A model generated the notes under the pieces. It did no database searches. It had not been told where the DNA came from and saw only the letters and a list, made by a program, of their open reading frames with translations. A program made the translations under genes and the position numbers. This document shows positions 11,901 to 49,607 of a DNA stretch of 49,684 nt, one piece after another (the stretch's first letter is position 1; every line of letters starts with the position of its first letter). Source of the DNA: Lachnospiraceae bacterium (lineage in GTDB: Bacteria > Bacillota > Clostridia > Lachnospirales > Lachnospiraceae); contig JAFLTA010000017.1 of NCBI GenBank assembly GCA_022510685.1, positions 1-49,684 on the forward strand. The letters are read 5' to 3'.

Positions 11901-13730
11901 ATGAAGCGAAAAACATGGGGAGTCATTTGTACACTGGCAATGCTCGCAACTTTGTTAGGCGGTTGTAGTAACAAAGAGACAAAGAAAACAGAGACCGGCA
12001 CAAAAATTGTGCAGGTAACGAATGTGGATGGTAATACAGTGACAGCGCAGGTAGGAGAGTTGTCAGAAAATCAAGGCGAAAACGGACCGGGGGGACAGAA
12101 GCCGGAAGGAGAGCCGCCGTCAGACATGGGTAACGGAGATAACAAAGGTGGCGGAAATGACGGAAACGGACCGGGAGGACAAAAACCGGAAGGAACACCA
12201 CCGGCGGACATGGGTAATGGAGATAACAAAGGTGGTGGAAATGACGGAAACGGACCGGAAGGACAAAAGCCGGAAGGAGAGCCGCCGTCAGACATGGGTA
12301 ATGGAGATAATAAAGGTGGCGGAATCGCCCCGGGAGGTGCTCCGGGTGGAAGCTCCTTTGTGGCAGGAGAGGAAACAATCACATTTCAGCTATCTGACAG
12401 TACCCAGGTGACTTTGGAACAACTTCAGGGCAGTGCAGACGGCACCACGGAGGATATCGTTGCCGGTGCCGTTCTGGAAATCACACTAGATGCAAAGAAT
12501 ATTGCTACAAAGGTTGTGGTTAAAAATTTGCAGGCGGGAAATGGATTTGGCGGTAGTGATGAAGTTACCAACGGAACAGCGGTAACCACGATAGACTCTG
12601 ATACCGAGGAGTCCGGCAAAACATACGAGTCCGATGGCGATGATGAAAATGCCCTGCGTGTGGATAATGCAACGGCAACTCTGAAAAATATTACAGTCAA
12701 AAAGACGGGAGGGGAATCTTCCAATACGGAAAACGGAGATTTTTATGGTGCCAATGCGGGACTTCTGGCGATGAATCAGTCTAAGGTGACTATTTCAGGA
12801 GCGGACGTTACAACCAGTGCCGTAAACGGCAATGGTATATTCAGTTATGGAGAGGGAACGGAAGTGACTGTTTCCGATTCCAAAATACGCACGGAGAACA
12901 ATAATTCCGGTGGCATTCAAACCACTGGCGGTGGGACTATGAATGCCAAAAATCTGGATGTGCAGACAAAAGGCAATTCAGCTGCAGCTATTCGCAGTGA
13001 CCGGGGAGGTGGAACGGTAACAGTGGATGGCGGAACCTATGTGACCAATGGTACAGGAAGTCCGGCAGTGTATTCTACGGCTGATATTACGGTAAAGAAT
13101 GCATTTCTCACGGCAAATGCCAGTGAGGGAGTTGTGGTGGAGGGGAAAAATTCCGTTACATTAGAGAATTGTGATGTTGTGGGAAATATGAGTAATACCT
13201 ATCAGGGAGATTCCACAGAAAATATCCACGGTATTATGATTTATCAAAGCATGTCCGGAGATGCTGACGTGGGAGAGGCTTCCTTTTCAGCTAAATCCGG
13301 CAGCATTACGGCAAAAAGCGGAGATTTGATTTATGTAACGAATACAGATTGCAAAATAGGGTTGGAGGATGTGGACTTAAAACTGGCTAACGATACTTTA
13401 CTGCGTGTTGAGGGAAACAGTTCTTCCCGTGGATGGGGTACGGAAGGTGCCAATGGAGGAGATGTAGTACTCACGACCACCAATCAGAAATTAACCGGGA
13501 ATATTATTGTAGACAAGATTTCGTCTCTGGAAATGACAATGTCAGGAAGTACTGAATTTGAGGGGACTATTAATACGGACGGAGAAGCAGGGAGCGTAAA
13601 AGTTACCATGGAAAAAGGTACTTCCTGGACGTTGACAGGGGACAGTTATGTGTCAGAATGGAATGGAGATACATCTCAGATTCATGCAAACGGACATCAC
13701 TTATATGTGAATGGAAAACAGTTTATATAG
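11901..13730 (+). CDS. Lipoprotein with Pro/Gly-rich tandem repeats and a right-handed beta-helix domain
   Basis: The 609-residue product has a lipoprotein signal (LAMLATLLGGCSNK) and so is anchored on the outer face of the membrane. A low-complexity linker contains three 28-residue repeats (GQKPEG-PPSDMGNGDNKGGG) at about residues 61-142. The C-terminal ~400 residues are short Val/Thr/Asn/Gly-rich strands (SKVTISGADV, VTVSDSKIRT, ADITVKNAFL), typical of a parallel beta-helix as in pectate-lyase-like or adhesin-like proteins. No catalytic motif is recognisable. The frame opens at 11865, but the ATG at 11901 follows GGGAGG and begins the signal peptide. A carbohydrate-binding or wall-surface role is inference. 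Confidence 0.8.
   Translation: MKRKTWGVICTLAMLATLLGGCSNKETKKTETGTKIVQVTNVDGNTVTAQVGELSENQGENGPGGQKPEGEPPSDMGNGDNKGGGNDGNGPGGQKPEGTPPADMGNGDNKGGGNDGNGPEGQKPEGEPPSDMGNGDNKGGGIAPGGAPGGSSFVAGEETITFQLSDSTQVTLEQLQGSADGTTEDIVAGAVLEITLDAKNIATKVVVKNLQAGNGFGGSDEVTNGTAVTTIDSDTEESGKTYESDGDDENALRVDNATATLKNITVKKTGGESSNTENGDFYGANAGLLAMNQSKVTISGADVTTSAVNGNGIFSYGEGTEVTVSDSKIRTENNNSGGIQTTGGGTMNAKNLDVQTKGNSAAAIRSDRGGGTVTVDGGTYVTNGTGSPAVYSTADITVKNAFLTANASEGVVVEGKNSVTLENCDVVGNMSNTYQGDSTENIHGIMIYQSMSGDADVGEASFSAKSGSITAKSGDLIYVTNTDCKIGLEDVDLKLANDTLLRVEGNSSSRGWGTEGANGGDVVLTTTNQKLTGNIIVDKISSLEMTMSGSTEFEGTINTDGEAGSVKVTMEKGTSWTLTGDSYVSEWNGDTSQIHANGHHLYVNGKQFI
12081..12325 (+). repeat. 84-bp tandem repeat, three copies, inside the beta-helix lipoprotein gene
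   Basis: Copies begin at 12081, 12165 and 12249. Each encodes 28 residues starting NGPGGQKPEG or NGPEGQKPEG; the third copy diverges at its last few codons. Copies differ at a few third positions and one short stretch (EPPSD versus TPPAD), so the repeat could expand or contract in length. Confidence 0.9.
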
Positions 13731-13731
13731 C

Positions 13732-14955
13732 TTATAAAAAGCATCCCAGTTGTGCAGTGACATAGGGTACTAACCAATGGAAGGATTCCTCTGCGGAGGA
13801 ATTCTTTTTTGCTATCTCGATAAATTCTTCCGACAGAGAAAGATAGGACAGTTTGTCCTTATATTCCTTAAAAAACACAGGGGTGTCAGAAAGGTTTAAT
13901 TTGGGGGTAAGGGATGGGATAAACAACCCGGTTTTCCTAAGGTAGCAGGTGGCGGCTGTCGCTTTTTTTCGGTGTTGGCTGTCAACGAATTCTGCTACGC
14001 TGCAGTGGATAGCAGTATCTTCCTCCGGCAGGTAATAATAGTTTTTATAGTCCGGTATGAAATATTTTAGGGTGTCCTGCCGAATGGGAAGGGATAATAC
14101 ACCGGTATTATCCGATAAAGTAACACGACAGTCCGGCAGACTCTCATTTTCACTGTCCTGTGTTACGCAGGGATATTTTCCGTTTAATGTAATTTCTTTT
14201 GGAACGGAAACCGGCAGCGAAAATCCAATCTGTAATATATGTTCAGATAAATCCAGTGTATGTATATATGCGGATGATATCATCGCAGGAGTCTCTTTTT
14301 TGAGTGTAAGGCAATGTCTGTAAGCGAGGAGTTCTGCTACAGAAAGCATTCCCAATAAATCATCATGGTTGTGTAACAAAAGCAGTTTCTCTTTTTCCGG
14401 TGCAGCTTCGGGATGTAGCAGCAGGTCCTGACGATACTGACTGTACACCTCTATAAGCTGTCCCCCGTTATATTTATCCTCGCGGCACACTCCGCACCAG
14501 TTTTCAAAGTCTTTCTGCGTACAATGGGGAAGTCCGAACGCTTTCTTTAGAGGGCGCAGGGCGATGAGTAAATCCAGAGATGTCGTCTGGCTGTGGTCGG
14601 AAAATATTTTCTCACAGTGGGATGACACCGACAGATCATATTTATCGCATTTTTGCAGAATATAAGAAATGTCAAAGGTGCGTCCGTTGAAATGGCACAG
14701 GCACTCAAAATGCTCCAACTGCTCTAAAAAAGCCATTACGATTTCCCGTTCACTGCGGGAATTATCTGCAAACCATTGTGTCAGTTGAAATTGTCCGGAG
14801 GACGGCTGATAGTGTATGGTCCCTATCAGATACAGAGAAGAAGTCCTCGGTGACAGACCGGTGGTCTCAATATCAAAAAAGAGCACCTTTTCCGGAGGAA
14901 CCGGAAATAGCGCTGCCTGTATTTTACTTTCAAAAACTTCTGTCACTGTTTTCAT
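13732..14955 (-). CDS. YprB-like RNase H-fold 3'-5' exonuclease domain protein
   Basis: The N-terminal ~200 residues form a DEDD-type exonuclease domain: FFDIETTGLSPRTSSLYLIG supplies the D-x-E pair, HFNGRTFDISYI the second Asp, and LLHNHDDLLGMLSVAELL the last. This matches the ribonuclease-H-like domain of Bacillus YprB. The C-terminal half, about 200 residues, has no motif I recognise. The frame is open up to 15054, but the likely promoter starts transcription near 15018, so an initiator at 15054 is excluded. Start codons at 14967 (MEIF...) and 14955 (MKTVTEVF...) remain, with only a weak AAAGG upstream, so the start is uncertain. Its natural substrate is unknown. It is divergent from cls. 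Confidence 0.82.
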   Translation of the reverse strand: MKTVTEVFESKIQAALFPVPPEKVLFFDIETTGLSPRTSSLYLIGTIHYQPSSGQFQLTQWFADNSRSEREIVMAFLEQLEHFECLCHFNGRTFDISYILQKCDKYDLSVSSHCEKIFSDHSQTTSLDLLIALRPLKKAFGLPHCTQKDFENWCGVCREDKYNGGQLIEVYSQYRQDLLLHPEAAPEKEKLLLLHNHDDLLGMLSVAELLAYRHCLTLKKETPAMISSAYIHTLDLSEHILQIGFSLPVSVPKEITLNGKYPCVTQDSENESLPDCRVTLSDNTGVLSLPIRQDTLKYFIPDYKNYYYLPEEDTAIHCSVAEFVDSQHRKKATAATCYLRKTGLFIPSLTPKLNLSDTPVFFKEYKDKLSYLSLSEEFIEIAKKNSSAEESFHWLVPYVTAQLGCFL

Positions 14956-38757: not shown

Positions 38758-40071
38758 ATGCCAATAAAATTGGCGCTGCGTTTATCAGGCAGGCATAAAC
38801 TTTTTCAGGTACTTATGCTGTTGTTATTGGTTTCCGTTTTTTTTATCGTGCTCGTCTGCACTTCTATTGTAAATTACCGCCTGCGTTATTATATGCCTTT
38901 GCGCAGTGATTTGAATCAAAGAGGAGAGAGTTATGGCGCGGTTTCTATGTCTTGCGAAAGAGATGGAGAAATGCATTTTGCTAAGTGCAGGACAGATATG
39001 GAAGATTGGCTGGAAGATGTAAAAAAAGTGTATGGGAGTTACTGTTGGAGTCAGGTGTATTGTGACGGTCGGCAGGTTTCCTGCTGGTCTTATGATACGG
39101 AATTGATTGAAAAATATACGCCGGAACTGGAGGAAGGGAGATGGCTCCGCAGCTCAGATGGGGAAACCCATATGCTTCAGGCAGTTGTGTATAACAGAGA
39201 CGGAAAAGTGCATGCGGGGGATGTATTGACATTGGATGAGGATAATTTTGGGTATTCTATTGAGGTCCAGGTGGTCGGAGTGTTAAAAGAGGAGAGTCTT
39301 GTTTTCGGATTTGATACAATGGCAGAGGATAACAATGGTACTTACGAGGATTACTATGTGTCACCGGAGATTCTGGCATACAGGGGGGCATATGCTATGC
39401 AGGAACCGGAACAGGTAAGTCTTGGCAGTAAACCGCCTTCGCCAACGGTTCTGTTTTTTCATAATGATGCTTTGGATAAGAACCCGTATTTCAGTGAGAA
39501 AGCGGGAGGAGATGGTACAGGTATCCAGAGAGTATTGTCCGGCATGGTGGTCATTATCTGGCAGGATGACATTTCGGAAACAACGATCCAGAAAAATTTA
39601 GAGAAGTTTACGCAGGTACAATGCGAATATGTGCAGAAATTGCCGCTTGACGAGAGGAAAGAAAATTCACAGCGTTATATTGCGGCACAGCTCTTTGTTA
39701 TTGCTCCGATTGGAATGATTGTCTTATTGCTGCTCATGGTTGCTATACTGAGTTTTGAGATACTGCAGACGACACAACAGATGAAAAGCTATGCAGTATT
39801 TTTTATATGTGGGATGAATTGGAAAAAGTGTGCCCTGATTAGTTTATGGCATGAAGTGGTGCTGCATACGGCGGCGGTCATCTTGTTTGCGGTGATCTAT
39901 TTTGTTACTACCGGGGTGCTGAGATACCGGTATGATCTGATTGCCCTTCATCTCAGTGGTGTTCTGATTATATTGGGGATATCACTGTTCAATATTTTTC
40001 TGTCAGTATTGCTGCCTAGAATTATCATTGGGAAAACGAAACCGAAAACACTGTTTTATGAGCATGGATGA
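38758..40071 (+). CDS. FtsX-like ABC permease, second of a pair
   Basis: The 437-residue protein has the same layout as its upstream partner: a first helix at about residues 15-38 (LMLLLLVSVFFIVLVCTSIV), a large extracytoplasmic domain, and three C-terminal helices from about residue 318. GGAAGGGGAG precedes the ATG. The 83 bp before it contain no obvious promoter. Its stop overlaps the open frame of the ATPase by four bases, although the preferred ATPase start is just downstream. Confidence 0.82.
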   Translation: MPIKLALRLSGRHKLFQVLMLLLLVSVFFIVLVCTSIVNYRLRYYMPLRSDLNQRGESYGAVSMSCERDGEMHFAKCRTDMEDWLEDVKKVYGSYCWSQVYCDGRQVSCWSYDTELIEKYTPELEEGRWLRSSDGETHMLQAVVYNRDGKVHAGDVLTLDEDNFGYSIEVQVVGVLKEESLVFGFDTMAEDNNGTYEDYYVSPEILAYRGAYAMQEPEQVSLGSKPPSPTVLFFHNDALDKNPYFSEKAGGDGTGIQRVLSGMVVIIWQDDISETTIQKNLEKFTQVQCEYVQKLPLDERKENSQRYIAAQLFVIAPIGMIVLLLLMVAILSFEILQTTQQMKSYAVFFICGMNWKKCALISLWHEVVLHTAAVILFAVIYFVTTGVLRYRYDLIALHLSGVLIILGISLFNIFLSVLLPRIIIGKTKPKTLFYEHG

Positions 40072-40088
40072 GTAGAGGAGAAATGATT

Positions 40089-40763
40089 ATGGTTGATATA
40101 AAGGACCTGACAAAAATTTATCACGAAAAAAAGTCAAATGAGTTTGAGGCGCTTCATCATGTCGACCTCACGATAAAAGAGGGAGAAATGGTGGGAATCG
40201 TAGGTACCTCCGGTGCAGGAAAGTCTACACTGCTTCATGTTCTTGCCTGCATCGATTCCTTTGAAGACGGAAATTATATTTTGGACGGCTGTTCTGTAGC
40301 CGGAATGAAAGACAAGGAATTGGCAGTGATAAGAAATGAAAAGATAGGAATCGTCATGCAGGATTTTGCGCTGGTGGAAAACTTCTCTGCTACAGAAAAT
40401 GTCATGATTCCTCTTGACTTTGCAAAAAAGAAACGGAGTCGGAAAGAAAAAAGGGAAATGACGATGAATGTCTTGGAGCAAATGGGACTAAGGGATTATG
40501 CGGGGAAAAAAGTATGTCAGCTTTCCGGTGGTCAGAAGCAGCGCGTAGCGATTGCACGTGCCATCGTCAATGACCCGGCGGTTATTTTGGCAGATGAGCC
40601 GACAGGCGCTCTGGATTCCATGACTACGCAAGAAATTATGTCTGTTTTTCAAAAATTAAACGAACAGGGGAAGACGATTATTATAGTTACTCATGATAAG
40701 GAAGTAGCCCTGCAGTGCGGACGGATTATTGAAATTTCAGATGGAAAGATCTTAGAGAAATAA
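40089..40763 (+). CDS. MacB/LolD-type ABC transporter ATP-binding protein
   Basis: The ATPase has Walker A GTSGAGKST, a Q-loop (VMQDFALV), the signature LSGGQKQRVAIARA, Walker B VILADEPTGALDS and the switch His in IIVTHDKEVA. This is the MacB/LolD/BceA branch that partners FtsX-like permeases. In-frame ATGs lie at 40068, 40083 and 40089. The last is chosen because AGGAG (40075-40080) is best spaced for it and MVDIKDLTKIY is the common N-terminus. It completes the second ABC system. No two-component system of the BceRS type is present. Confidence 0.94.
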   Translation: MVDIKDLTKIYHEKKSNEFEALHHVDLTIKEGEMVGIVGTSGAGKSTLLHVLACIDSFEDGNYILDGCSVAGMKDKELAVIRNEKIGIVMQDFALVENFSATENVMIPLDFAKKKRSRKEKREMTMNVLEQMGLRDYAGKKVCQLSGGQKQRVAIARAIVNDPAVILADEPTGALDSMTTQEIMSVFQKLNEQGKTIIIVTHDKEVALQCGRIIEISDGKILEK

Positions 40764-40856
40764 GTGATAATATGATGAAGGAAAAGGACTGTCTTCGGCA
40801 TCTGTGAATATCTGCATCTCATTATTACTCTAGCTTAAATTTAGTGTTTTCAAGGG

Positions 40857-40886
40857 TTGACGGTATTTTCTGTGATAGCTTATAAT
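40857..40886 (+). promoter_or_regulatory. Predicted promoter for the macrodomain gene
   Basis: TTGACG (40857-40862), an 18-base spacer and a perfect TATAAT (40881-40886). It lies in the 242-bp gap after the ABC cassette; I saw no clear terminator for that cassette in this gap. Confidence 0.75.
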
Positions 40887-41005
40887 GATTATCAAATATC
40901 CTGAAATGGAAGGATTAACAATATAAATTATACATCAAAGGGTTTTCAATGGCATTATGCATGGGAATCCTTTGGTTTCATGTAGTGATGGTCTGGAGGA
41001 TGATG

Positions 41006-41788
41006 ATGACTCAGAGTGAGCGAAGAATATATTTGATACGGGAACTGCTGAATGAGGATGCTAAGTATCGCGGGACGGAAATACCATCGGAGAAGGATGA
41101 ACAGAGTGACCTTCTCCGTGGGCTAATGAATGTACGTCAGCCGGGGAAAATCAGTGATGATTTTCTGGCTGTGCAGGATGCGTATCTGCAGGAGGAGACA
41201 GAAGAAAAGGGCATAACGGCTCTAGAGGAGTTATCCCCTGTTTTGGAGGGACTCTATCTGTGGCAGGGGGATATAACCACTTTGCGATGTGGTGCGATTG
41301 TCAATGCTGCTAACAGTGGTATGACGGGATGTTATACGCCTTGCCATAATTGTATTGATAACTGTATCCACACTTATGCCGGAATACAGCTTCGGCTTGC
41401 CTGTGATGAGATCATACGGAAACAGGGGCACGGGGAGGCGACCGGGCAGGCAAAAATCACACCGGCATTTAACTTGCCTTGCGATTATGTAATGCATACG
41501 GTGGGACCTATCGTATCCGGCAGCCTGACGGAAGAACATAAGCGTTTACTGGCTTCCTGTTACCGCTCCTGTATGGAACTGGCAGAGCAGTATGATGTCA
41601 CAAGCATAGCCTTCTGTTGTATTTCAACGGGTGTATTTCATTTTCCTAATGACATTGCGGCAGAAATTGCCATTAGGACTGTGAAAGAATATAGAGAGCA
41701 GACGAAAAGCAGTATGAAGGTAATCTTTAACGTGTTTGGGGATAGGGATTATGAGATTTACAGGGAGTTGTTGGAGGGGAGAGGGTGA
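41006..41788 (+). CDS. Zinc-type macrodomain protein-ADP-ribose hydrolase
   Basis: The 260-residue protein has an N-terminal helical extension of about 80 residues and a macrodomain. The ADP-ribose loop is IVNAANSGMTG (residues 98-108) and the adjacent GCYTPCHNCIDNCIHTYAG is the Cys/His-rich insert of the zinc-dependent macrodomains. C109, C113, H114 and C116 are candidate ligands. VMHTVGPIV and ISTGVFHFPNDIAAEIA complete the fold. Relatives remove ADP-ribose from proteins and often sit with a SirTM sirtuin and a lipoylated carrier; none is present here. The frame is open from 40949; ATG 41006 is preferred as the best spaced after GGAGG. Confidence 0.92.
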   Translation: MTQSERRIYLIRELLNEDAKYRGTEIPSEKDEQSDLLRGLMNVRQPGKISDDFLAVQDAYLQEETEEKGITALEELSPVLEGLYLWQGDITTLRCGAIVNAANSGMTGCYTPCHNCIDNCIHTYAGIQLRLACDEIIRKQGHGEATGQAKITPAFNLPCDYVMHTVGPIVSGSLTEEHKRLLASCYRSCMELAEQYDVTSIAFCCISTGVFHFPNDIAAEIAIRTVKEYREQTKSSMKVIFNVFGDRDYEIYRELLEGRG

Positions 41789-42495
41789 TGTGTGGTATGG
41801 CATTTTCTATTAAAAAGACATTTAAACTATATGGCGACGGAAATTGGCAGCGCTCCTCCGCACAGAGACTGTTACTGAATACCGAGAAAGCCGACGGAGC
41901 CTATAAAAAGTATAAAAAAGAAATTATGGATTCCTACCTGAAACAAGCTGGCTTTTTGAAATGGAAATCAGAGTCTTATGTCCGATTGAATGACATAGGT
42001 TTATTGGAATACATTGGTCTGCAAAAAGAACGTCATGGTGGACGAACATTTACGGTGAATTTTGCAGTAATGCCATTATATATGCCCCTTCAATGGGAAG
42101 AAACCAATTTTGGAACCAGATTGGGTTTGTACATCAGTAAGAAAGATTTTTGGTGGGATTATAAAGATGATAAAACAGCGAGAAAAAGCTTTGAAAATGT
42201 AAGAGATGCCATTGAGTTATATTTGATTCCGTGGTTTGAGAAGTACAGTGATGAGGTGGAGTATAGACAAACATTAACAGATGCTGTAAATGGAAATCAA
42301 AGTGATTATCTGACAGCTACCAGCAGGTATTATGAAAAATGGCTTGCCTATCTGCATGCAAAGAATGGAAATAAGGAGGAAGTTGCAAAAATTTTTAGTC
42401 TAAATGAGATGGATGAAAAAATCTTTCTTGAGGGTGGAGTAGAAAAGATTGTGTCCGAAAATATGGATAGATTAAAGTTGCCGAAGGGGCTATAA
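41788..42495 (+). CDS. DUF4304-like protein coupled to the macrodomain gene
   Basis: The 235-residue protein resembles the DUF4304 group: an N-terminal helix pair with YLKQAGFLKWKSESYVRLND, then strands GLLEYIGLQKERHGGRTFTVNFAVMP separated by short turns. A helical C-terminal part follows, with WLAYLHAKNGNKEEVAKIF. Function is unknown. The ATG at 41788 shares its A with the upstream TGA, and GGAGGGGA lies seven bases ahead, so the two genes are coupled. A later ATG at 41797 is a possible alternative. Confidence 0.65.
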   Translation: MCGMAFSIKKTFKLYGDGNWQRSSAQRLLLNTEKADGAYKKYKKEIMDSYLKQAGFLKWKSESYVRLNDIGLLEYIGLQKERHGGRTFTVNFAVMPLYMPLQWEETNFGTRLGLYISKKDFWWDYKDDKTARKSFENVRDAIELYLIPWFEKYSDEVEYRQTLTDAVNGNQSDYLTATSRYYEKWLAYLHAKNGNKEEVAKIFSLNEMDEKIFLEGGVEKIVSENMDRLKLPKGL

Positions 42496-42594
42496 TATGT
42501 TTGTGATTAAAGGGGCTATATGGTACAATCTTATTGTTACAGAGAACAACAAATATTAACTTGTGAGCAAGATAAATTAGGGATCAGATGTTAA

Positions 42595-42840
42595 GGGAAA
42601 GTTCATATTATTCCTATTGCCCCGCTTGATATTACGAATTTAAACAAAAGATATGATATTCCGCTCTGCTTTATTCAAGGTGATAACGATTGGATTACTC
42701 CAACATATTTAGTAGATCATAATTGTTCATGTGTTACGGCTAAGAAAAAAGAAATAGTTACTATTAACAATGCAGGACATACTCCTTTTTTGGATGATCC
42801 GGAGCAATTTGTTGAAGCAGTTAAACCTTTTTTTATCTGA
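42595..42840 (+). pseudogene. C-terminal remnant of an alpha/beta hydrolase
   Basis: An 81-codon frame with no start, preceded in frame by TAA at 42592-42594, ends in TGA at 42838-42840. It reads IPLCFIQGDNDWITPT (the Asp-bearing turn of the catalytic triad) and later NNAGHTPFLDDPEQFVEAV (the His-bearing turn and last helix). Both are typical of the end of proline-iminopeptidase-like hydrolases. The N-terminal two thirds are missing. Confidence 0.75.
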
Positions 42841-42874
42841 GTGTGAGAACAAATAATACTTACTAAAGAAATAG

Positions 42875-42973
42875 GAGGATTTCGCTCTCACTGATGATGA
42901 TATGAAAAAGATTGATTCTTTTGATATCGGACACAGTGAGATTATCGACCCTTTTGCTACATTAACGGCATAG
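42875..42973 (+). pseudogene. C-terminal remnant of an aldo/keto reductase
   Basis: A 32-codon fragment reads EDFALTDDDMKKIDSFDIG and then HSEIIDPFATLTA before a TAG. This matches the end of aldo/keto reductases, where L-x-x-E/D-D-M-x-x-I-D is followed by a short terminal segment. No start or body of the gene remains. Confidence 0.75.
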
Positions 42974-43006
42974 TTCCTCAATTTTTTGTGTGATAAGTTT
43001 TTGTTA

Positions 43007-43036
43007 TTGATACTAATAAAAAATATGTATTATACA
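43007..43036 (+). promoter_or_regulatory. Predicted promoter of the LanC-like operon
   Basis: TTGATA (43007-43012) with TTATAC or TATACA as the -10, 17 or 18 bases away (43030-43036). An imperfect palindrome (ATAA, 7 bases, TTAT, at 42993-43007) touches the -35 and could be an operator. Confidence 0.5.
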
Positions 43037-43132
43037 GACTCTCCCGGATATGATATGATTTATTAACTTGATTTTTATCTGCTTACAAATATAAAGTGGC
43101 TTTTGATGCCAGTGAATAAAAGGAGAGGTAGC

Positions 43133-44518
43133 ATGGTGGAAAGGAAGCATCAGTTTCAAATAAATAAGTTATTTGAGATTGATAGGGAATATCAGGGTGA
43201 AAAATATCTGGAGCTTGTGCTGGAAGCGGAGAAAGAGATTTCCGAGCATAAGATTGAAAATGATCATGAAATTTATTGGAAGGATTCCAAACTGGCAATT
43301 AATGAAACAACGGATCTGAGTTTTGGATATGGAGTCTCCGGAATTGTTTATTTTTACATACAGTTGTATTCTGTCAAAGAGAAAGAGGAATATTTGAATT
43401 ACATACAGAAAGGACTCACGTTTATCGAAAATCATTGGAAGGAATGGATATCTCAGAATGATGTAGAGCTGCTTCCGTGGCCGGATGGCATGAAATACGG
43501 TTTGTATTTCGGACTGGCAGGCGTGGGTGCTGTTCTGACGCTTGCCTATGAACGCTTTGCTGATGTCCATGTCAAAGAAACTCTGGATGCAGTCCTGCAA
43601 TTTTATCAGGAAAATAAGAAGCCGCAGAAAAAAGGAATCACATGGACGAATAGTATCACGATTCTTACCGATGGCGGAGTATTGTTATTTTTGCTGAAAT
43701 ATTATGAATTGTTTCCAAACGATAACGTTAAGGATTTGATTATTGCTTCGGCGGATTGGTATTTGGAACAGGCAGTCGATCATGGGAAAGATGGTCTGGA
43801 GTTTTCGGACTATGGTACTGCGAAGTTAAGTGAGCCGGATTTCCCCTATGACAATGTTTCCCAGCCGAATTTTGAATTAGGTAGTGCCGGAGCTGGATTT
43901 GTACTGGGCAGGCTGTATCAGGTTTTGGGAGATGACAGATATTTGAAAGCTGCGAAAGGTGTTGAAATTTATTTAGATACGATCAAGATTCCTCAAAAGA
44001 AGGGATTTTTGTTGCCATACCGGGTTGGCGAGGGGCAGGAGGCTTTTTATTATCTGGGGAATTGTCATGGTCCTGCAGGAACCGCAAAATTTTATTATCT
44101 TTTGTTTCAGATCACTGGTGAAGAAAAATACTTAACAAAACTGCATGACCTGATTGACGGATTCGAGTCTTTGGGTGCGCCGTACCGAATGTCAGCAGGG
44201 TTGTGGAATAACGTGAGTGTATGCTGTGGTCAAGGGGGAATGTTAAATACATTTTCCGGACTGTACAGTTCACAGAAAGATGAGCGATGGCTTAGGCTGG
44301 CGAAAGATTCGGCAAGAATTGTAGCGGCAAATATAGACCAGTTAGAAAGTGGAAATAAAGGCTGGACAATCGCATATCGAAGAGTAGTTCCTGATGAATT
44401 TTCCCATACTATTTTTTATAATGACGGGGATGCTGGGCTGGGAAATGCTTTGCTGCAGATTTATCTGTTGGAGACGGGACAAAAAAATATAAACCGCTTT
44501 GCGGATGATCCCTTTTAA
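43133..44518 (+). CDS. Stand-alone LanC-like (lanthionine cyclase-like) protein with a CCG zinc motif
   Basis: The 461-residue protein has seven Gly-rich motifs spaced as in the alpha/alpha toroid of LanC: GYGVSGIVYF, FGLAGVGAVL, DGGVLLFL, GSAGAGFVLG, NCHGPAGTAKF, CCGQGGMLNTF and NDGDAGLGNALL. The metal ligands map to Cys311 and to Cys364-Cys365. The second site reads C-C-G where most LanC proteins have C-H-G. LanC-family enzymes use zinc to activate a Cys thiol for addition to dehydroalanine, and animal LANCL proteins use glutathione. No dehydratase, precursor peptide or exporter is nearby, so it is not a standard lanthipeptide gene. The ATG at 43133 follows GGAGAGG; the frame is open from 43103. 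An SDR and a LysR gene follow. Confidence 0.85.
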   Translation: MVERKHQFQINKLFEIDREYQGEKYLELVLEAEKEISEHKIENDHEIYWKDSKLAINETTDLSFGYGVSGIVYFYIQLYSVKEKEEYLNYIQKGLTFIENHWKEWISQNDVELLPWPDGMKYGLYFGLAGVGAVLTLAYERFADVHVKETLDAVLQFYQENKKPQKKGITWTNSITILTDGGVLLFLLKYYELFPNDNVKDLIIASADWYLEQAVDHGKDGLEFSDYGTAKLSEPDFPYDNVSQPNFELGSAGAGFVLGRLYQVLGDDRYLKAAKGVEIYLDTIKIPQKKGFLLPYRVGEGQEAFYYLGNCHGPAGTAKFYYLLFQITGEEKYLTKLHDLIDGFESLGAPYRMSAGLWNNVSVCCGQGGMLNTFSGLYSSQKDERWLRLAKDSARIVAANIDQLESGNKGWTIAYRRVVPDEFSHTIFYNDGDAGLGNALLQIYLLETGQKNINRFADDPF

Positions 44519-44565
44519 GTGAGAACTTAAGGAAGAACCATAAAATAGAAAGAGAGAAAATGATT

Positions 44566-45351
44566 ATGAGCGATAAAAAAGTGGCAATTGTAACAGGTGC
44601 AGCGACGGGAATTGGTTTCGGCGGTGCTGAAAAATATGCGGAGAATGGCTGGGGAGTGGCATTGATCGACATGAGACAGGAAACACTTGACCAAGCTGTC
44701 CTGGAATTGAAAAACAAGGGGTATGATGTAAGGGGATATCTGTTAGATGTCAGCGATTACCAGCAGGGGAAAAAAATAGTTACTGAAATCATAAAGGATT
44801 TTGGGAGAATTGACGCATTATTTAACAATGCAGGAATCATCGGACACAGACCGGGAATTCTGGAGTGTGATCCGGTTGAGATAAAAAAGGCGACAGAGGT
44901 AAATGTATTCGGTACGCTTTATATGACACAGCATGTGGCAAAATATTGGGTAAAAAATCAGATACAGGGTGCTGTTGTAAATGTTTCTTCGATTGCTGCA
45001 GAAATGGCATCTTGGGACCCTTTCGGTTATCAGATTTCAAAGTATGGGGTAAAAGGTCTTACCAAGTCTACGGCATTTCAGTTAGGCAGTTATGGAATCC
45101 GTGTAAATGCAGTGGGACCGGGTCATACTAAAACAGAGATGTCCAGGATTGACTGGGAAAATCCGGAGACTTTTGAACTGGCAAAAAATGAAAATTTATT
45201 ACACAAGTGGCTGAACCCGGAGGATATTGCGAATGCTGCATTTTTCCTGTCAACAGATGCATCAAATGGAATTACAGGTCAGATTGTCATGGTGGATGCG
45301 GGGTATACCGTTTCAAAAGCGGATAACCGGGTAAGCCTTTACGGAGACTGA
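44566..45351 (+). CDS. Short-chain dehydrogenase/reductase (SDR)
   Basis: A classical Rossmann SDR of about 261 residues. The NAD(P) loop TGAATGIG, NNAG and the catalytic Ser142-Tyr155-Lys159 (NVSSIAAEM and YQISK) are intact, as are the PG motif (VNAVGPGHTKTEM) and the C-terminal GQIVMVDAGY. It resembles gluconate- or 3-oxoacyl-reductase-like members, but the substrate cannot be inferred. In-frame ATGs lie at 44560 and 44566; the second is better spaced from AGAGAG. It lies 47 bp after the LanC-like gene and 18 bp before the LysR gene, so the three are probably one operon. Confidence 0.93.
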   Translation: MSDKKVAIVTGAATGIGFGGAEKYAENGWGVALIDMRQETLDQAVLELKNKGYDVRGYLLDVSDYQQGKKIVTEIIKDFGRIDALFNNAGIIGHRPGILECDPVEIKKATEVNVFGTLYMTQHVAKYWVKNQIQGAVVNVSSIAAEMASWDPFGYQISKYGVKGLTKSTAFQLGSYGIRVNAVGPGHTKTEMSRIDWENPETFELAKNENLLHKWLNPEDIANAAFFLSTDASNGITGQIVMVDAGYTVSKADNRVSLYGD

Positions 45352-45369
45352 TAGAAAGCGGGTGAATCA

Positions 45370-46272
45370 TTGACAATACTACAATTGAAATATGTTCTTG
45401 CGATAGCAAATTCCTCTTCCATGAGGGAGGCTGCCGGCAAGCTGTTTGTGACACAGCCGGCTCTTTCTTCTACTATTCGGGAGCTGGAAGAGGAAGTGGG
45501 TATCAAGATATTTGAAAGGACGAATAAAGGAATTTCCCTGACCAATCAAGGAACGGAATTTATCTCCTACGCAAAGCAGGCGGTAAGTCAATATGAGTTG
45601 ATTGAAGAAAGATATATAGCTAAGGAAAAAGAGGTAAAACATTTTTCTGTTTCCATGCAGCACTATGTATTTGCTGTGCATGCTTTTGTGAATGTCATAA
45701 AACGGTGTGAAGAGAAGAAATATGTTTACACGGTTCGCGAAACCAGAACAGCAGAGGTACTTTATAGTGTCAGGGATATGGAAAGTGAGATTGGTGTTTT
45801 AGCCTATTCAAAAAACAACGAGAACGTTATGAAAAGGCTGTTTCGGGAATATCAGTTGGATTTTCATCCGTTGATGGTGCGTGATACCTATGCATATTTG
45901 TGGAAAGGGCATCCTTTGGCAGACAGACAGGAACTTTCTCTGGAAGAGCTGGCTCAGTACCCATGTATCAGTTTTGATCAAAGTGGAGACAGTGATTTTT
46001 ATATTACAGAGGAAGCGTTGGGAAATTATGAGTTTGAGAAGCTGATCAAGACAACAGACCGTGCAACGACTTCTGAAATCATGGTGGAGCTAAACGGATA
46101 CTCCATAGGGACAGGAATCATGATGGACAGTGTCATTATGAAAGATGAGATAGTTACCATTAAATTAAAAGAACAAGATCCGCTCAAAATCGGATATATC
46201 CTTAGGAAAAATCATAAATTGAGTGATATCGGAGAAATATATATTGAGGAATTAAAAAAGTATAAGGGATAA
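45370..46272 (+). CDS. LysR-family transcriptional regulator
   Basis: A 300-residue LysR-type regulator: the N-terminal winged helix reads LQLKYVLAIANSSSMREAAG followed by LFVTQPALSSTIRELEEEVG. The rest is a two-lobe effector-binding domain. The start is a TTG at 45370 (GCGGGTG upstream), an uncommon choice that could limit expression. It is the last gene of the LanC/SDR unit and is followed by a terminator and the ABC importer. In Bacillus a LysR protein (YtlI/AscR) likewise activates a cystine importer operon. Control of the downstream importer is therefore a reasonable inference. Confidence 0.92.
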   Translation: MTILQLKYVLAIANSSSMREAAGKLFVTQPALSSTIRELEEEVGIKIFERTNKGISLTNQGTEFISYAKQAVSQYELIEERYIAKEKEVKHFSVSMQHYVFAVHAFVNVIKRCEEKKYVYTVRETRTAEVLYSVRDMESEIGVLAYSKNNENVMKRLFREYQLDFHPLMVRDTYAYLWKGHPLADRQELSLEELAQYPCISFDQSGDSDFYITEEALGNYEFEKLIKTTDRATTSEIMVELNGYSIGTGIMMDSVIMKDEIVTIKLKEQDPLKIGYILRKNHKLSDIGEIYIEELKKYKG

Positions 46273-46306
46273 GAATTGATGCGATTCTGATCCCTTATAT
46301 TTTTAT
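46262..46306 (+). terminator. Terminator after the LysR gene
   Basis: AAGGGATAAGAAT at the very end of the gene pairs with ATTCTGATCCCTT (one mismatch), followed by ATATTTTTATT. It separates the LanC/SDR/LysR unit from the importer operon. Confidence 0.75.
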
Positions 46307-46362
46307 TGAATCAGATAATCCTTCCCGTTTTGATCAACAATACTCCGATTCCCAGAGTTTAT

Positions 46363-46394
46363 ACTTAATAAGTAAAACTTATCACAAATGATAA
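46363..46394 (+). promoter_or_regulatory. Cluster of palindromes, likely LysR operator for the importer operon
   Basis: ACTTA-a-TAAGT (46363-46373), AAGT-aaa-ACTT (46370-46380) and TTATCACAAATGATAA (46379-46394, six-base arms) overlap one another. The last has LysR-style dyad symmetry. Its centre lies about 55 bases before the start point predicted from the weak promoter below, the usual place for a LysR activator site. Confidence 0.5.
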
Positions 46395-46405
46395 ATTACG
46401 GGAAA

Positions 46406-46434
46406 TTTTCAAAAACGCCAAAGGGTGATAGACT
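46406..46434 (+). promoter_or_regulatory. Weak candidate promoter of the amino acid importer operon
   Basis: TTTTCA (46406-46411), a 17-base spacer and TAGACT (46429-46434), each hexamer matching consensus at four positions. Low intrinsic strength is what one expects of an activator-dependent promoter. Confidence 0.35.
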
Positions 46435-46491
46435 TTATTCAATCAAAGTAGCGAAAGCGAAATGAAATTATATCAATTGGGAGATGGAATT

Positions 46492-47346
46492 ATGAGAAGA
46501 GAAAAATTAGTAAAAAAAGGACTTTCATTAACATTATCACTTGCACTGGTTGCATCATTGGCAACAGGGTGTGGAACAACCAGCAGCGGAAGCACTACAT
46601 CGAAAGACGGCGTAACAACTATCCGCGTAGGTAGCGGTACCACTTACGAGCCATACTGCTATCTGGATGAAAATGGAGATGCCGTGGGACTGGAATACGA
46701 TCTTTTGAAAGCAATTGATGAAAAATTACCGCAGTATGAATTTGAGTATCAGTCATTGGCATTCGATAACTTATTGTTATCCGTAGATTCCGACAAGTTG
46801 GACTTCGTTGCTCATCAGTATTCGGCAAATCCGGAAAGAGAAGAAAAGTATTTGCTGTCGGATGAAACCTATACCGTATTTGATACATATATCACGGTAT
46901 TGGCTGACAACAATGATATTCATTCGCTTGACGATCTTCAAGGAAAAAATGTATGGGGCGGCGGTGTGACCAGTGAGGTAAATACAGCGTTAGTGAACTA
47001 CAACAAAGACCATGCAGATAATCCCATTGTCATCGTAAACAGTGATGACACCACTTATGAGTACCAGACGGAAAACTTAAAGAACGGTGCATGGGTAGCC
47101 TCTATCAGTCAGGCTCTGGATGTGGCTGGTTATAATAAAGAAGCGGGCACAGAGCTATTAAAAACCGTTGGTGATCCAGTCACCTCTTCCCTGACACATT
47201 ATATATTCCGGAAGGATAAGCAGGAATTAAAGACAGCAGTTGACGGTGCTTTGAAAGAATTAAGAGAGGACGGAACGTTAGCAGAAATTTCTGAAAAATG
47301 GTTAGGTGGGGATTACACGGGTACCAGTAATGAAAGCGATGAATAG
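46492..47346 (+). CDS. Amino acid ABC importer, substrate-binding lipoprotein (cystine-type)
   Basis: The 284-residue protein has a lipoprotein signal (LALVASLATGCGTT) and a periplasmic-binding fold of the polar amino acid family. IRVGSGTTYEPYCYLDENGD and VGLEYDLLKAIDEKL mark the first lobe; AHQYSANPEREEKYLLSDETY is the segment conserved in cystine-type binders such as TcyJ/TcyK. The frame opens at 46462, but ATG 46492 follows GGGAGATGG and starts the signal peptide. It leads the importer operon with two permeases and one ATPase. Cystine or another sulfur amino acid is a reasonable guess, not a proof. Confidence 0.88.
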   Translation: MRREKLVKKGLSLTLSLALVASLATGCGTTSSGSTTSKDGVTTIRVGSGTTYEPYCYLDENGDAVGLEYDLLKAIDEKLPQYEFEYQSLAFDNLLLSVDSDKLDFVAHQYSANPEREEKYLLSDETYTVFDTYITVLADNNDIHSLDDLQGKNVWGGGVTSEVNTALVNYNKDHADNPIVIVNSDDTTYEYQTENLKNGAWVASISQALDVAGYNKEAGTELLKTVGDPVTSSLTHYIFRKDKQELKTAVDGALKELREDGTLAEISEKWLGGDYTGTSNESDE

Positions 47347-47358
47347 GAGTTGTTTCAA

Positions 47359-48048
47359 TTGAGCGATTTATTTGATTTTGACCGATTTACGAAAGCGGTT
47401 ACTCAGATTACTCCATATTTGGGAATTACAGCACATATCGTAATCGTTGCCATCGTGTTTGGAAGTATTCTGGGATTGATAGTGGCAATTTTGAGAATCA
47501 ATAATATTCCGGTTGTCCAGCAGGTTTTAGATGTTTATATTTCCTTTATGCGGGGGACGCCAATGATCATACAGTTGATGTTGATCTACTATGCACTTCC
47601 TTTTGTATTGCGGAGTACGCTGGGGATTGACATTAACGGTTGGGAGAATCTGACCTTTGTAGATGTTACTTTTATCATTAATGAAGGAGCGTTTCTGGGA
47701 GAAATTTTCCGTGGGGCGATACAGGCGGTACCCTATCAGCAGACAGAAGCAGGGTATTCTGTTGGATTAAATCGATTTCAGACATTTACGCGAATTGTAC
47801 TGCCCCAGGCAGTACGAATCGCTCTCCCGGCTTATGGTACCGATCTGATCGGTATTTTCCATAATACATCAATTGCTTTCATGATAGGCGTTATTGATAT
47901 TATCGGTAGAGCGCAAAGTATTAAAGCGGCTACGGGACACGCATTGGAGGCATATATATTTATCGCGATCATTTATATTGTGGTAAGTGCGTTATTGAAA
48001 ATATTGTTTGCAACTCTTGATAAAAAATTGGAATATGGGAGGAATTAA
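47359..48048 (+). CDS. Polar amino acid ABC permease, first subunit
   Basis: The 229-residue membrane protein has about five transmembrane helices and the EAA-type loop ([28 protein letters not shown]) of the His/Glu/Arg/opine permease family. The frame opens with TTG at 47350, but that overlaps the AGGAG (47345-47349). The TTG at 47359, nine bases after it, is the better start, giving LSDLFDFDRF at the N-terminus. It pairs with the next permease to form a heterodimer. Confidence 0.92.
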   Translation: MSDLFDFDRFTKAVTQITPYLGITAHIVIVAIVFGSILGLIVAILRINNIPVVQQVLDVYISFMRGTPMIIQLMLIYYALPFVLRSTLGIDINGWENLTFVDVTFIINEGAFLGEIFRGAIQAVPYQQTEAGYSVGLNRFQTFTRIVLPQAVRIALPAYGTDLIGIFHNTSIAFMIGVIDIIGRAQSIKAATGHALEAYIFIAIIYIVVSALLKILFATLDKKLEYGRN

Positions 48049-48059
48049 AGGAGGAAGTT

Positions 48060-48770
48060 ATGGAATTTCATTTTGACTATCTGGTGGATTCTTTGAAATA
48101 TGGATTTATGTATCTGCCGGTTACCGTTAAGCTTGCCCTGATTTCTTATGCCATAGGAGTTGTTATCGGATTGGTGATTGCCATTGTAAGAACCTATCGG
48201 GTTCCCGTGTTGACGCAGATATTTGCTGCATTTGTGGCGATTTATCAGGGTGTGCCTACGATGGTTGCGCTGTTGATTTACAATCTGCTGTTTATTACCT
48301 GTTTTAACGACGTGGCGGCTTTCTTTCGTTCAAAGCTGACACTGGCAGATGTGAGTACAATCTATGTGGGATATGTGGCACTTAGTCTGTACTGTATTGT
48401 GCAGATCAGTGAAACATTTCGCGGAGCATTAAAGTCCATTCCGGATAATCAGTATGAAGCAGGATACTCCGTCGGACTTACTAAGGTGCAGACATTGAGA
48501 CGTATCATTATTCCGCAGATGATTCCGGTTGCCATGCCGGGGCTGACCAATAACATGGTGGGAACTATCAAGGCAACCGCACTGGTCAGTGCAGTTGGTA
48601 TTATAGAGGTAATGCAGGGGTCTATCATTCCCTGTGGTATTACCTACAGCTATATGGAAGGATATGCAGCGGCAGCTATTGTCTACTGGATATTCTCGGA
48701 AGTGATCGGACTGATTATGAGATTGATTGAAAAAAGCAGTAACCGTTATGTAAGGAGGGGCGCTGTATGA
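48060..48770 (+). CDS. Polar amino acid ABC permease, second subunit
   Basis: The 236-residue protein has the same fold as its neighbour, with the EAA loop [22 protein letters not shown] and the MKSIP-like motif LKSIPDNQY before it. AAAGGAGGAAG precedes the ATG. Two different permeases with one ATPase match the TcyL/TcyM/TcyN arrangement of Bacillus cystine uptake. The stop overlaps the ATPase ATG by four bases (ATGA). Confidence 0.93.
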
Positions 48771-49522
48771 TAGAGATAAAAAATGCGAAAAAATCCTTTG
48801 GAAACTTGCAGGTGTTAAAAGATGTTTCCTTGAAAGTAGATACAGGCGATGTTGTGGTAATCCTCGGTCCATCCGGTTCCGGAAAGACTACACTGCTCAG
48901 ATGTTTGAATTTTCTGGAAAAGGCAGATGAAGGACAGTTGACGATAGGAGATCAGGTAGTGGACTTGAAACACGCCTCCGGAAAAGAAATATTACAAATT
49001 CGCAGAAAAACGGCATTTGTATTTCAGAATTATGGATTATTTCAAAACAAGACAGCATTGAAAAATGTAATGGAGGGTCTGGTAGTTGCAAGGAAGGTGC
49101 CGAAGAAGGAGGCAGAGGAGCGTGCCAGAGAAGCACTGGAATGGGTCGGACTTGCAGATAAGGCAGATTTCTATCCGTCACAGCTATCCGGTGGACAGCA
49201 GCAACGTGTAGGTATTGCAAGAGCCGTTGTACTGAATCCGGAAGTGATCTTGTTTGACGAACCAACTTCCGGACTGGATCCTGAGTTAATCGGGGAGATT
49301 CTGGATGTGATCAAGCGCGTTAAGGAACGTGGGATTACTATGGTGATTGTGACACACGAGATGTCCTTTGCCCAGGATGTGGCAAATCATGTTGTATTTA
49401 TGGCGGAAGGATATGTGGTGGAAGAAGGATCTCCTCATGATATATTCAGCAGTCCGAAAGAAGAGAGGACAAAGCAGTTTCTGGCAAGAGTATTGCCGGA
49501 TGATTATACGTATGCAATATGA
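48767..49522 (+). CDS. Polar amino acid ABC importer ATP-binding protein
   Basis: The 251-residue ATPase has Walker [11 protein letters not shown]-loop VFQNYGLF, signature [14 protein letters not shown], Walker [15 protein letters not shown] and the H-loop IVTHEMSFA, all of the PAAT (polar amino acid) type. A C-terminal segment ([21 protein letters not shown]) matches the family end. It overlaps the second permease gene by four bases and completes a four-gene importer. Confidence 0.95.
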
Positions 49523-49569: not shown

Positions 49570-49607
49570 CGGTTGTCATAGGCATATGGCAGCCGATTTT
49601 TCTATTT
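49570..49607 (+). terminator. Terminator after the amino acid importer operon
   Basis: CGGTTGTCAT (49570-49579) pairs with ATGGCAGCCG (49586-49595), with two G-U pairs and a six-base loop. TTTTTCTATTTTT follows. The last ~75 bases of the window contain no gene that I can identify. Confidence 0.85.

Follow-up and report, generated by a model that had tools for sequence, protein, structure and literature searches.

We propose that a stand-alone LanC-like protein from a Lachnospiraceae bacterium is an uptake-linked metabolic enzyme, probably a zinc enzyme, which handles the carbon-sulfur (C-S) bond of an imported cysteine thioether and has no peptide substrate, a reading to which we give about an even chance of being right. 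The protein is 461 amino acids long and is encoded at 43133..44518 on the + strand of a 49,684-nucleotide stretch of DNA (the window), which is the entire contig C12 of a 2.77 Mb genome that is in 102 contigs and 90.65% complete. Because its gene sits with genes for sulfur amino acid import and processing, here and in relatives, the protein probably works on small sulfur molecules. The fold and family are known; the zinc site is altered and the metabolic setting is new.

Relatives came from two samples. In 397 genomes of the window's family (the family sample), 28 LanC genes were found in 20 genomes at E up to 1e-10, the window's included, and a pattern scan of species genomes, whose pattern required a Cys at the C311 position, gave 292 LanC relatives, of which 80 were kept. 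Residues were counted over 97 distinct LanC sequences including the window's (14 of 111 were dropped as duplicates), and neighbours were counted out to 5 kb around 59 LanC genes of Bacillota, drawn from both samples. A few loci (L048, L059, L115; L numbers denote loci) contribute more than one of the 97, so the counts refer to genes and not to loci. No more than 4 or 5 first-look candidates were scored in each genome, so copies can be missed. A second scan of 295 genomes at the 'order' level, using the LanC alignment at E 1e-30, matched the window's genome only, which indicates that the gene is patchy in its occurrence.

The LanC fold and a conserved three-cysteine site

The protein has the LanC fold, an alpha/alpha toroid closest to LanC structures. 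It begins with an ATG, stands alone without a dehydratase domain and scores 76.2 bits against Pfam LANC_like (PF05147; gathering cut-off 23.2), and Z scores of 24.1-34.1 for LanC structures compare with 22.1 or less for the listed glycosidases. An earlier note on this DNA had named a structural placement with glycoside hydrolases or epimerases as a possible refutation, and the structure ranking came down on the side of LanC. The same note described seven intact Gly-rich motifs, which is accurate for the fold and not for catalysis, with Leu249 in motif 4 and CCG for CHG in motif 6. Inspection of the sequence by eye also suggests that motif 3 is degenerate.

A profile of the C-terminal half was in register with the acid-His motif, WCHG and ICHG of LanCL2. 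The WCHG register identifies C311 as the predicted first zinc ligand and places H312 at the position of LanCL1 His277 (codons 44063..44068, + strand), and the ICHG register makes C364 and C365 the predicted second and third ligands (codons 44222..44227, + strand). All three positions are Cys in 97/97 sequences, and the CC pair, unlike C311, was not imposed by the scan pattern. W358 and R417 are also kept in 97/97 and H312 in 85/97. The invariance of the three cysteines (the Cys3 site), W358 and R417 makes the site look catalytic, and judging from the alignment it probably holds zinc.

Two residues depart from canonical thia-Michael LanC/LANCL enzymes: the third position of their Cys-Cys-His triad is Cys365, and their general-acid His is replaced by Leu249 (codon 43877..43879, + strand, from the LanCL2 alignment). 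This acid is His212 in NisC and His219 in LanCL1, as given in the available text of PMC9934072, PMC7296275 and PMC10604976. Over the 97 sequences the position is His in 48, F in 14, M in 12, Y in 11, L in 8, G in 2 and a gap in 2; among the 18 members of the window's own LanC clade (support 1.00) it is F in 12, L in 2, Y in 2, G in 1 and a gap in 1, with no His. With the general acid lost, the earlier idea that the protein builds thioethers from dehydroamino acids by the known mechanism finds no support.

The CCG zinc motif is shared with CuvL (8car/8cav) and presumably with the LanC domain of ProcM, both multidomain lanthipeptide synthetases in contrast to the stand-alone window protein. Compared with the class I cyclases NisC and MadC, the window protein has the Cys3 site and lacks the general-acid His, and neither dehydratase nor precursor was seen near its gene. 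Tyr307, which precedes the first zinc Cys by four residues, occupies the place of NisC Arg280, as assigned by spacing and not by superposition and on the part of PMC7296275 that was available.

Sulfur amino acid genes around LanC-like genes

In the window the LanC-like gene opens a run of seven + strand genes in the final 6.4 kb, separated by gaps of 41, 18, 189, 3, 11 and -4 bp. It is followed by a short-chain dehydrogenase/reductase (SDR) of 263 amino acids (44560..45351; Pfam adh_short_C2, 197 bits; TGxxxGIG, NNAG and YxxxK motifs), a LysR-type regulator of 300 amino acids with a TTG start (45370..46272; Pfam HTH_1 and LysR_substrate) and an ATP-binding cassette (ABC) importer comprising a TcyJ/TcyK-type amino-acid binding protein (46462..47346; Pfam SBP_bac_3), permease 1 (47350..48048; Pfam BPD_transp_1, NCBIfam TIGR01726 above cut-off), permease 2 (48060..48770; Pfam BPD_transp_1) and an ATPase (48767..49522). 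The genes and the order that the earlier note had read are confirmed. The SDR had no match among solved structures at E 1e-45.

The binding protein is of the YtmK type. Its best matches in the PDB were YtmK (2o1m, 160 bits) and Lmo2349 (4gvo, 157.5 bits), with the next at 87 bits, and the analogy that had been drawn to the Bacillus ytmI importer holds for this protein, as these two lead by about 70 bits. Three of the four importer proteins (binding protein, permease 1 and ATPase) have an NCBIfam cystine model as their best match, in each case below cut-off (for the ATPase the TcyN model NF008428, 311 bits against a cut-off of 406), and the best model for permease 2 is of the arginine type, also below cut-off. 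No importer gene passes a substrate-specific NCBIfam cut-off. With the Bacillus ytmI/TcyJKLMN and yxe operons the window shares the YtmK-type binding protein, two permeases, an ATPase and a LysR gene; it differs in that no acetyltransferase, flavin monooxygenase or deacetylase is present among the ten genes scanned at 40068-49522, LanC and the SDR standing there instead.

The co-location of LanC and importer that the earlier note had pointed out recurs in other genomes, so that neither of the two refutations which the note named came about. L032, which scored highest among the family-sample relatives, has the order SDR-LanC-SBP-permease-permease-ATPase, SBP being the substrate-binding protein, and L049 has LanC-LysR-SBP-permease-permease-ATPase; of the solved structures, YtmK and Lmo2349 are likewise the best matches to the binding proteins of both. 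A cystine-type importer gene lies within 5 kb of 8/97 LanC genes (the window, L032, L040, L049, L069, L082, L065 and L087), which is a minority arrangement. An SBP_bac_3 gene is near LanC in all of these except L087, where the importer was recognised by its permease. L065 and L087 are Bifidobacterium genomes, and L082 is an Enterococcus with the importer on the other strand, transcribed away from LanC. In L040, the binding protein encoded at 12856-14499 (- strand) is a fusion of SBP_bac_3 with an NlpA lipoprotein domain. Its gene belongs to a run of ABC importer genes that lies downstream of genes for LanC, a cysteine-synthase-like protein, LysR, cystathionine lyase and PatB; this is perhaps a combined cystine/methionine importer.

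Other kinds of binding protein also occur beside LanC. NMT1 genes directly precede it in L072, L073, L075, L077 and L079 and lie farther away in L086 and L125 (7/7 labels confirmed by Pfam), and L074 and L081 have an SBP_bac_5 (Opp-type) gene ahead of it, in L081 at a distance of 3.9 kb (2/2 confirmed). That one enzyme family has binding proteins of unrelated types as neighbours suggests that its substrates are imported compounds.

Within the family sample, the partner seen most often is a cysteine synthase homologue, found within 5 kb of 20/28 LanC genes. In a tree of 44 such homologues, those at most four genes from LanC form one clade with support 0.99, which also includes the copy in L136, seven genes from LanC; the exceptions are four of canonical CysK or CysM type (one each in L043, L048, L055 and L086). 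Most clade members have GxSAxA in place of the GISSGA of CysK, and three that were tested fall below all NCBIfam cut-offs for CysK, CysM, CBS, SbnA and cysteate synthase, with CysK/CysM as their best models. The partner shares the PALP fold with CysK, CBS and MccA-type enzymes and differs from them by its own clade and, in most members, its GxSAxA motif.

A profile built from 14 of these cysteine-synthase-like proteins was run over the 397 family genomes and gave 18 matches of at least 448.7 bits in 15 genomes, followed by a step to 435.5 bits and lower. All 15 genomes fall among the 20 with LanC (hypergeometric 2.8e-23, with genomes taken as independent), and 17/18 copies are at most one gene from a LanC gene, the exception being G043:C3. 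The profile leans toward LanC neighbours because its rows were picked for lying near LanC; that choice did not, however, dictate the confinement of the clade to LanC genomes. In L035, L040 and L059 the homologue next to LanC belongs to a more divergent branch that scores 278-294 bits, under the step, and the two matches below the step that were inspected are both nitrogenase-linked. In L048, L059 and L115, tandem LanC-like genes of different subfamilies share a single neighbouring cysteine synthase homologue.

Some nitrogenase-like enzymes are known to cleave thioethers. In the window's genome, locus L139 (G000:C76:1-6957) has two nitrogenase component-1-like proteins (Pfam Oxidored_nitro) beside a cysteine synthase homologue, in a row that also contains a NifH-like ATPase and a radical-SAM-like protein (both by eye), and a similar grouping occurs in L033. 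This may be a second C-S system.

Across the 59 Bacillota LanC genes, the genes found within 5 kb were a cysteine synthase homologue of any clade (40), a cystathionine lyase/synthase (16), LysR (15), some importer (15), PatB (12) and an SDR (12), genes sharing a locus being counted apart. The PatB assignments hold up well, with 11/11 proteins scoring 410 to 474 bits, above the 340-bit NCBIfam cut-off for PatB C-S lyase. The link to sulfur amino acids that had been suggested from the window is real in Bacillota, chiefly through the cysteine synthase homologue, the PatB C-S lyase and cystathionine lyase. An SDR gene lies within 6 kb in 10/18 members of the window's LanC clade compared to 3 of the other 79. 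Single loci have a gamma-glutamyltranspeptidase (Granulicella, L080), an M19 dipeptidase (L074) or an M20 peptidase (L087) near LanC; these three activities belong to the route from glutathione conjugates to cysteine conjugates.

In L090, on the same contig as L037, the genes ahead of LanC encode a flavoprotein resembling fumarate reductase, a member of the malate/lactate dehydrogenase family and a carrier of the Na+/H+-antiporter family, and L084 and L093 have genes of near-equal lengths in the same order. This neighbourhood hints at a dicarboxylate-bearing substrate. Nitroreductase-family genes are close to LanC in L061 and L058 (Bifidobacterium saguinibicoloris and a Butyrivibrio-labelled metagenome-assembled genome).

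A proposed role in cysteine thioether metabolism

In the pathway that we propose, the TcyJK-type importer would bring in a cysteine derivative, either cystine or an S-substituted cysteine, and the neighbouring LysR would control the importer operon. The predicted Cys3 zinc (C311, C364, C365) would bind the sulfur of a small thiol or thioether, and the LanC-like enzyme would make or, more likely, break a C-S bond at the metal by a retro-thia-Michael type elimination or a thiol transfer. The SDR may oxidise or reduce a carbinol or carbonyl of the imported compound or its product; an appealing if speculative idea is that oxidation of a carbinol beside the C-S bond would make elimination possible without the His. 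The released sulfur or thiol would enter cysteine metabolism, where in most family-sample relatives the cysteine synthase homologue (20/28 LanC genes) may supply the next step, sometimes joined by the PatB-type C-S lyase and cystathionine lyase. Beyond the type of binding protein, this pathway is read from the company that the gene keeps.

Lachnospiraceae are anaerobes and would therefore need an oxygen-free C-S enzyme. In Bacillus subtilis, salvage of cysteine from S-alkyl-cysteines is established and uses flavin enzymes that consume oxygen (PMC10863075, available text), and in Listeria a YtlI-driven TcyKLMN importer serves cystine/cysteine (PMC9239247, in the portion available). Among yxe clusters, the accessible text of PMC9706529 describes some in which an S-(2-succino) lyase replaces the monooxygenase and 11/102 loci with neither. 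More tentatively, in a proposal that we think somewhat likelier to fail than to hold, the Cys3 LanC-like enzymes would be an uptake-linked, oxygen-free class of small-molecule C-S enzymes that in Lachnospiraceae is paired with its own cysteine-synthase-like, pyridoxal phosphate-dependent clade and takes sulfur from imported cysteine thioethers, an anaerobic counterpart of the Bacillus flavin-monooxygenase salvage and the first LanC proteins without a peptide or protein substrate.

To our knowledge, the LanC-type enzymes with known reactions all act on peptides or proteins, and labels such as 'lanthionine synthetase LanC family protein' steer readers toward peptides. If the proposal is true, the LanC fold would gain a new small-molecule role in a family spread over several phyla, gut bacteria would have an oxygen-free route for cysteine S-conjugates, and in gut and rumen Bacillota the family would be tied to importers and to a private cysteine-synthase-like partner. 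No description of the LanC-like/cysteine synthase pairing was found in the open-licence literature, which does not prove its absence elsewhere, and the pairing is specific enough for tests with purified proteins.

Several observations weigh against uptake-linked C-S chemistry. Retro-Michael reactions are reported for LanC enzymes, a precedent in favour, but replacing the general-acid His abolished this reaction in lanthipeptide enzymes (both in the available part of PMC9934072); with Leu249 at that position, the canonical mechanism is doubtful for the window protein. The window's genome, at its stated completeness, has no member of the cysteine-synthase-like clade (its best match, at 413 bits, is a nitrogenase-linked homologue), which makes the window operon an importer variant without that partner. 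The aminotransferase beside the L032 operon is of the HisC type and not a C-S lyase, and for 9/59 LanC genes of Bacillota no listed partner was seen. Tree support for the exact position of the window's LanC is weak, at 0.19-0.46. Enrichment of the importer is modest, with 4/28 LanC genes of the family sample compared to 0.38 expected (P 0.0007), or 3/27 compared to 0.37 without the window (P 0.006); the expectation takes about 60 SBP_bac_3 genes, merged by hand, in 49.9 Mb, and the loci had already been viewed when the 5 kb limit was chosen.

The sulfur context is also rare outside Bacillota. Only 2/32 loci of other phyla have any listed partner, both of the cystathionine lyase/synthase type, and no cysteine synthase homologue or importer was found in the 32; absence is less certain in high-G+C loci, where genes were mis-called and only partly repaired. 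In three of the 32, genes for M20 peptidases or gamma-glutamyltranspeptidase share the strand of LanC, 26/32 keep the general-acid His, and several start with an export-signal-like sequence (by eye). Taken together, the rare sulfur context, mostly retained His and export-signal-like starts suggest that the LanC family may not have one function. Among five plasmid records of relatives, three of them labelled 'lanthionine synthetase LanC family protein', the three inspected have an unhelpful context: the Nonomuraea stretch has no listed gene, and the Mesobacillus relative has no sulfur-amino-acid gene listed nearby at the one viewed of its two places, in a PLSDB gene table that is incomplete.

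The best surviving alternative, which we nonetheless consider unlikely, is a LANCL-type guard enzyme, co-regulated with thiol supply, whose role would be to add a low-molecular thiol such as cysteine or gamma-glutamylcysteine to electrophiles, dehydroamino acids among them. Human LanCL1 and LanCL2, which add glutathione to dehydroalanine (Dha) and dehydrobutyrine (Dhb), are likewise stand-alone LanC-like proteins; the window protein differs by a Cys for the zinc-ligand His, Leu for His219 and an adjoining amino-acid importer. The missing general acid speaks against a guard enzyme, and the several importer types near the gene fit an outside substrate better than housekeeping repair. The GshAB model matched nothing over its cut-off in the 20 LanC genomes, 19 of which have no match to its GshA part, weakening the case for a glutathione-dependent LANCL copy. 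Among these 20, a GshA-like domain (263 bits, cut-off 425) occurs in the window's genome only, at G000:C16:17422-18690, about 3 kb from an SBP_bac_3 gene. The earlier note's interpretation is supported in its LanC fold and its link to sulfur uptake, whereas the known thioether mechanism and a general link to glutathione, with a GshA-like domain in only 1/20 LanC genomes, find no support as stated.

Still less probable is a non-catalytic zinc protein that docks on the cysteine-synthase-like enzymes to regulate or channel them, in the manner of CysE and CymR on CysK. The tight pairing (17/18 clade copies at most one gene from LanC) and the absence of the general-acid His in about half of the LanC family are what such a protein would lead one to expect, but the window genome and the L032 operon keep LanC without that partner alongside, and none of the 97 sequences departs from the Cys3 site, W358 or R417, a pattern that looks catalytic.

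An orphan lanthipeptide cyclase with its precursor encoded elsewhere is improbable, even though the fold is that of LanC and LanC domains are best known from lanthipeptide synthesis. The search of the window's genome found a single LanC-domain protein and hence no LanM, LanL or LanKC with a recognisable LanC domain, and metabolic neighbours accompany 50/59 Bacillota LanC genes. Neither dehydratase nor precursor was seen in the window (Pfam scan of ten genes; by eye), including any obvious precursor open reading frame in the 637 bp upstream of LanC (by eye). A LanB search gave 0 matches in the 20 LanC genomes and also 0 in its 14 control genomes, and so carries no weight here. The Clostridium orphan CA_C0082 is comparable as a synthetase-like protein for which a role beyond lanthipeptides is considered, but it is class II LanM-like and tied to Agr quorum sensing and not to sulfur amino acids, so far as the available text of PMC10301443 goes.

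A carbohydrate-active or epimerase-like alpha/alpha-barrel enzyme, suggested by Pfam matches to GH127 and GH88 below cut-off and by profile matches to chains of GH76 and cellobiose epimerase that rank lower than the best LanC matches, is barely credible given the fold ranking, a LANC_like score far above cut-off and the invariant Cys3 site.

Further features of the window

A ribosome-binding-site-like GGAGAGG directly precedes the LanC ATG at 43133. Upstream lies a promoter-like site at 43031..43059 (+ strand; TATACA-17-TATGAT with TG before the second hexamer), which is graded weak because 25 such sites were found compared to 20.8 expected by chance. After the last gene is a terminator-like hairpin at 49570..49595 (+ strand) with an 11-pair stem and a T-rich tail, one of 7 such sites compared to 4.3 expected by chance; the contig ends at 49684. 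An Rfam scan of the window and six loci at gathering thresholds matched only one tRNA, in L069, so no regulatory RNA (riboswitch or T-box) backs the sulfur link.

Just upstream of LanC, an open stretch at 42670-42837 has a match below cut-off to Abhydrolase_6 (E 0.0044), like the C-terminal part of an alpha/beta hydrolase, and may be the remnant of a decayed gene. Farther upstream, at 40949-42495, a Macro-domain protein-ADP-ribose hydrolase (NF003163, above cut-off) is encoded beside a DUF4304 protein. Macro-domain genes are also a few kb from LanC in L038 and L048, a link that looks casual.

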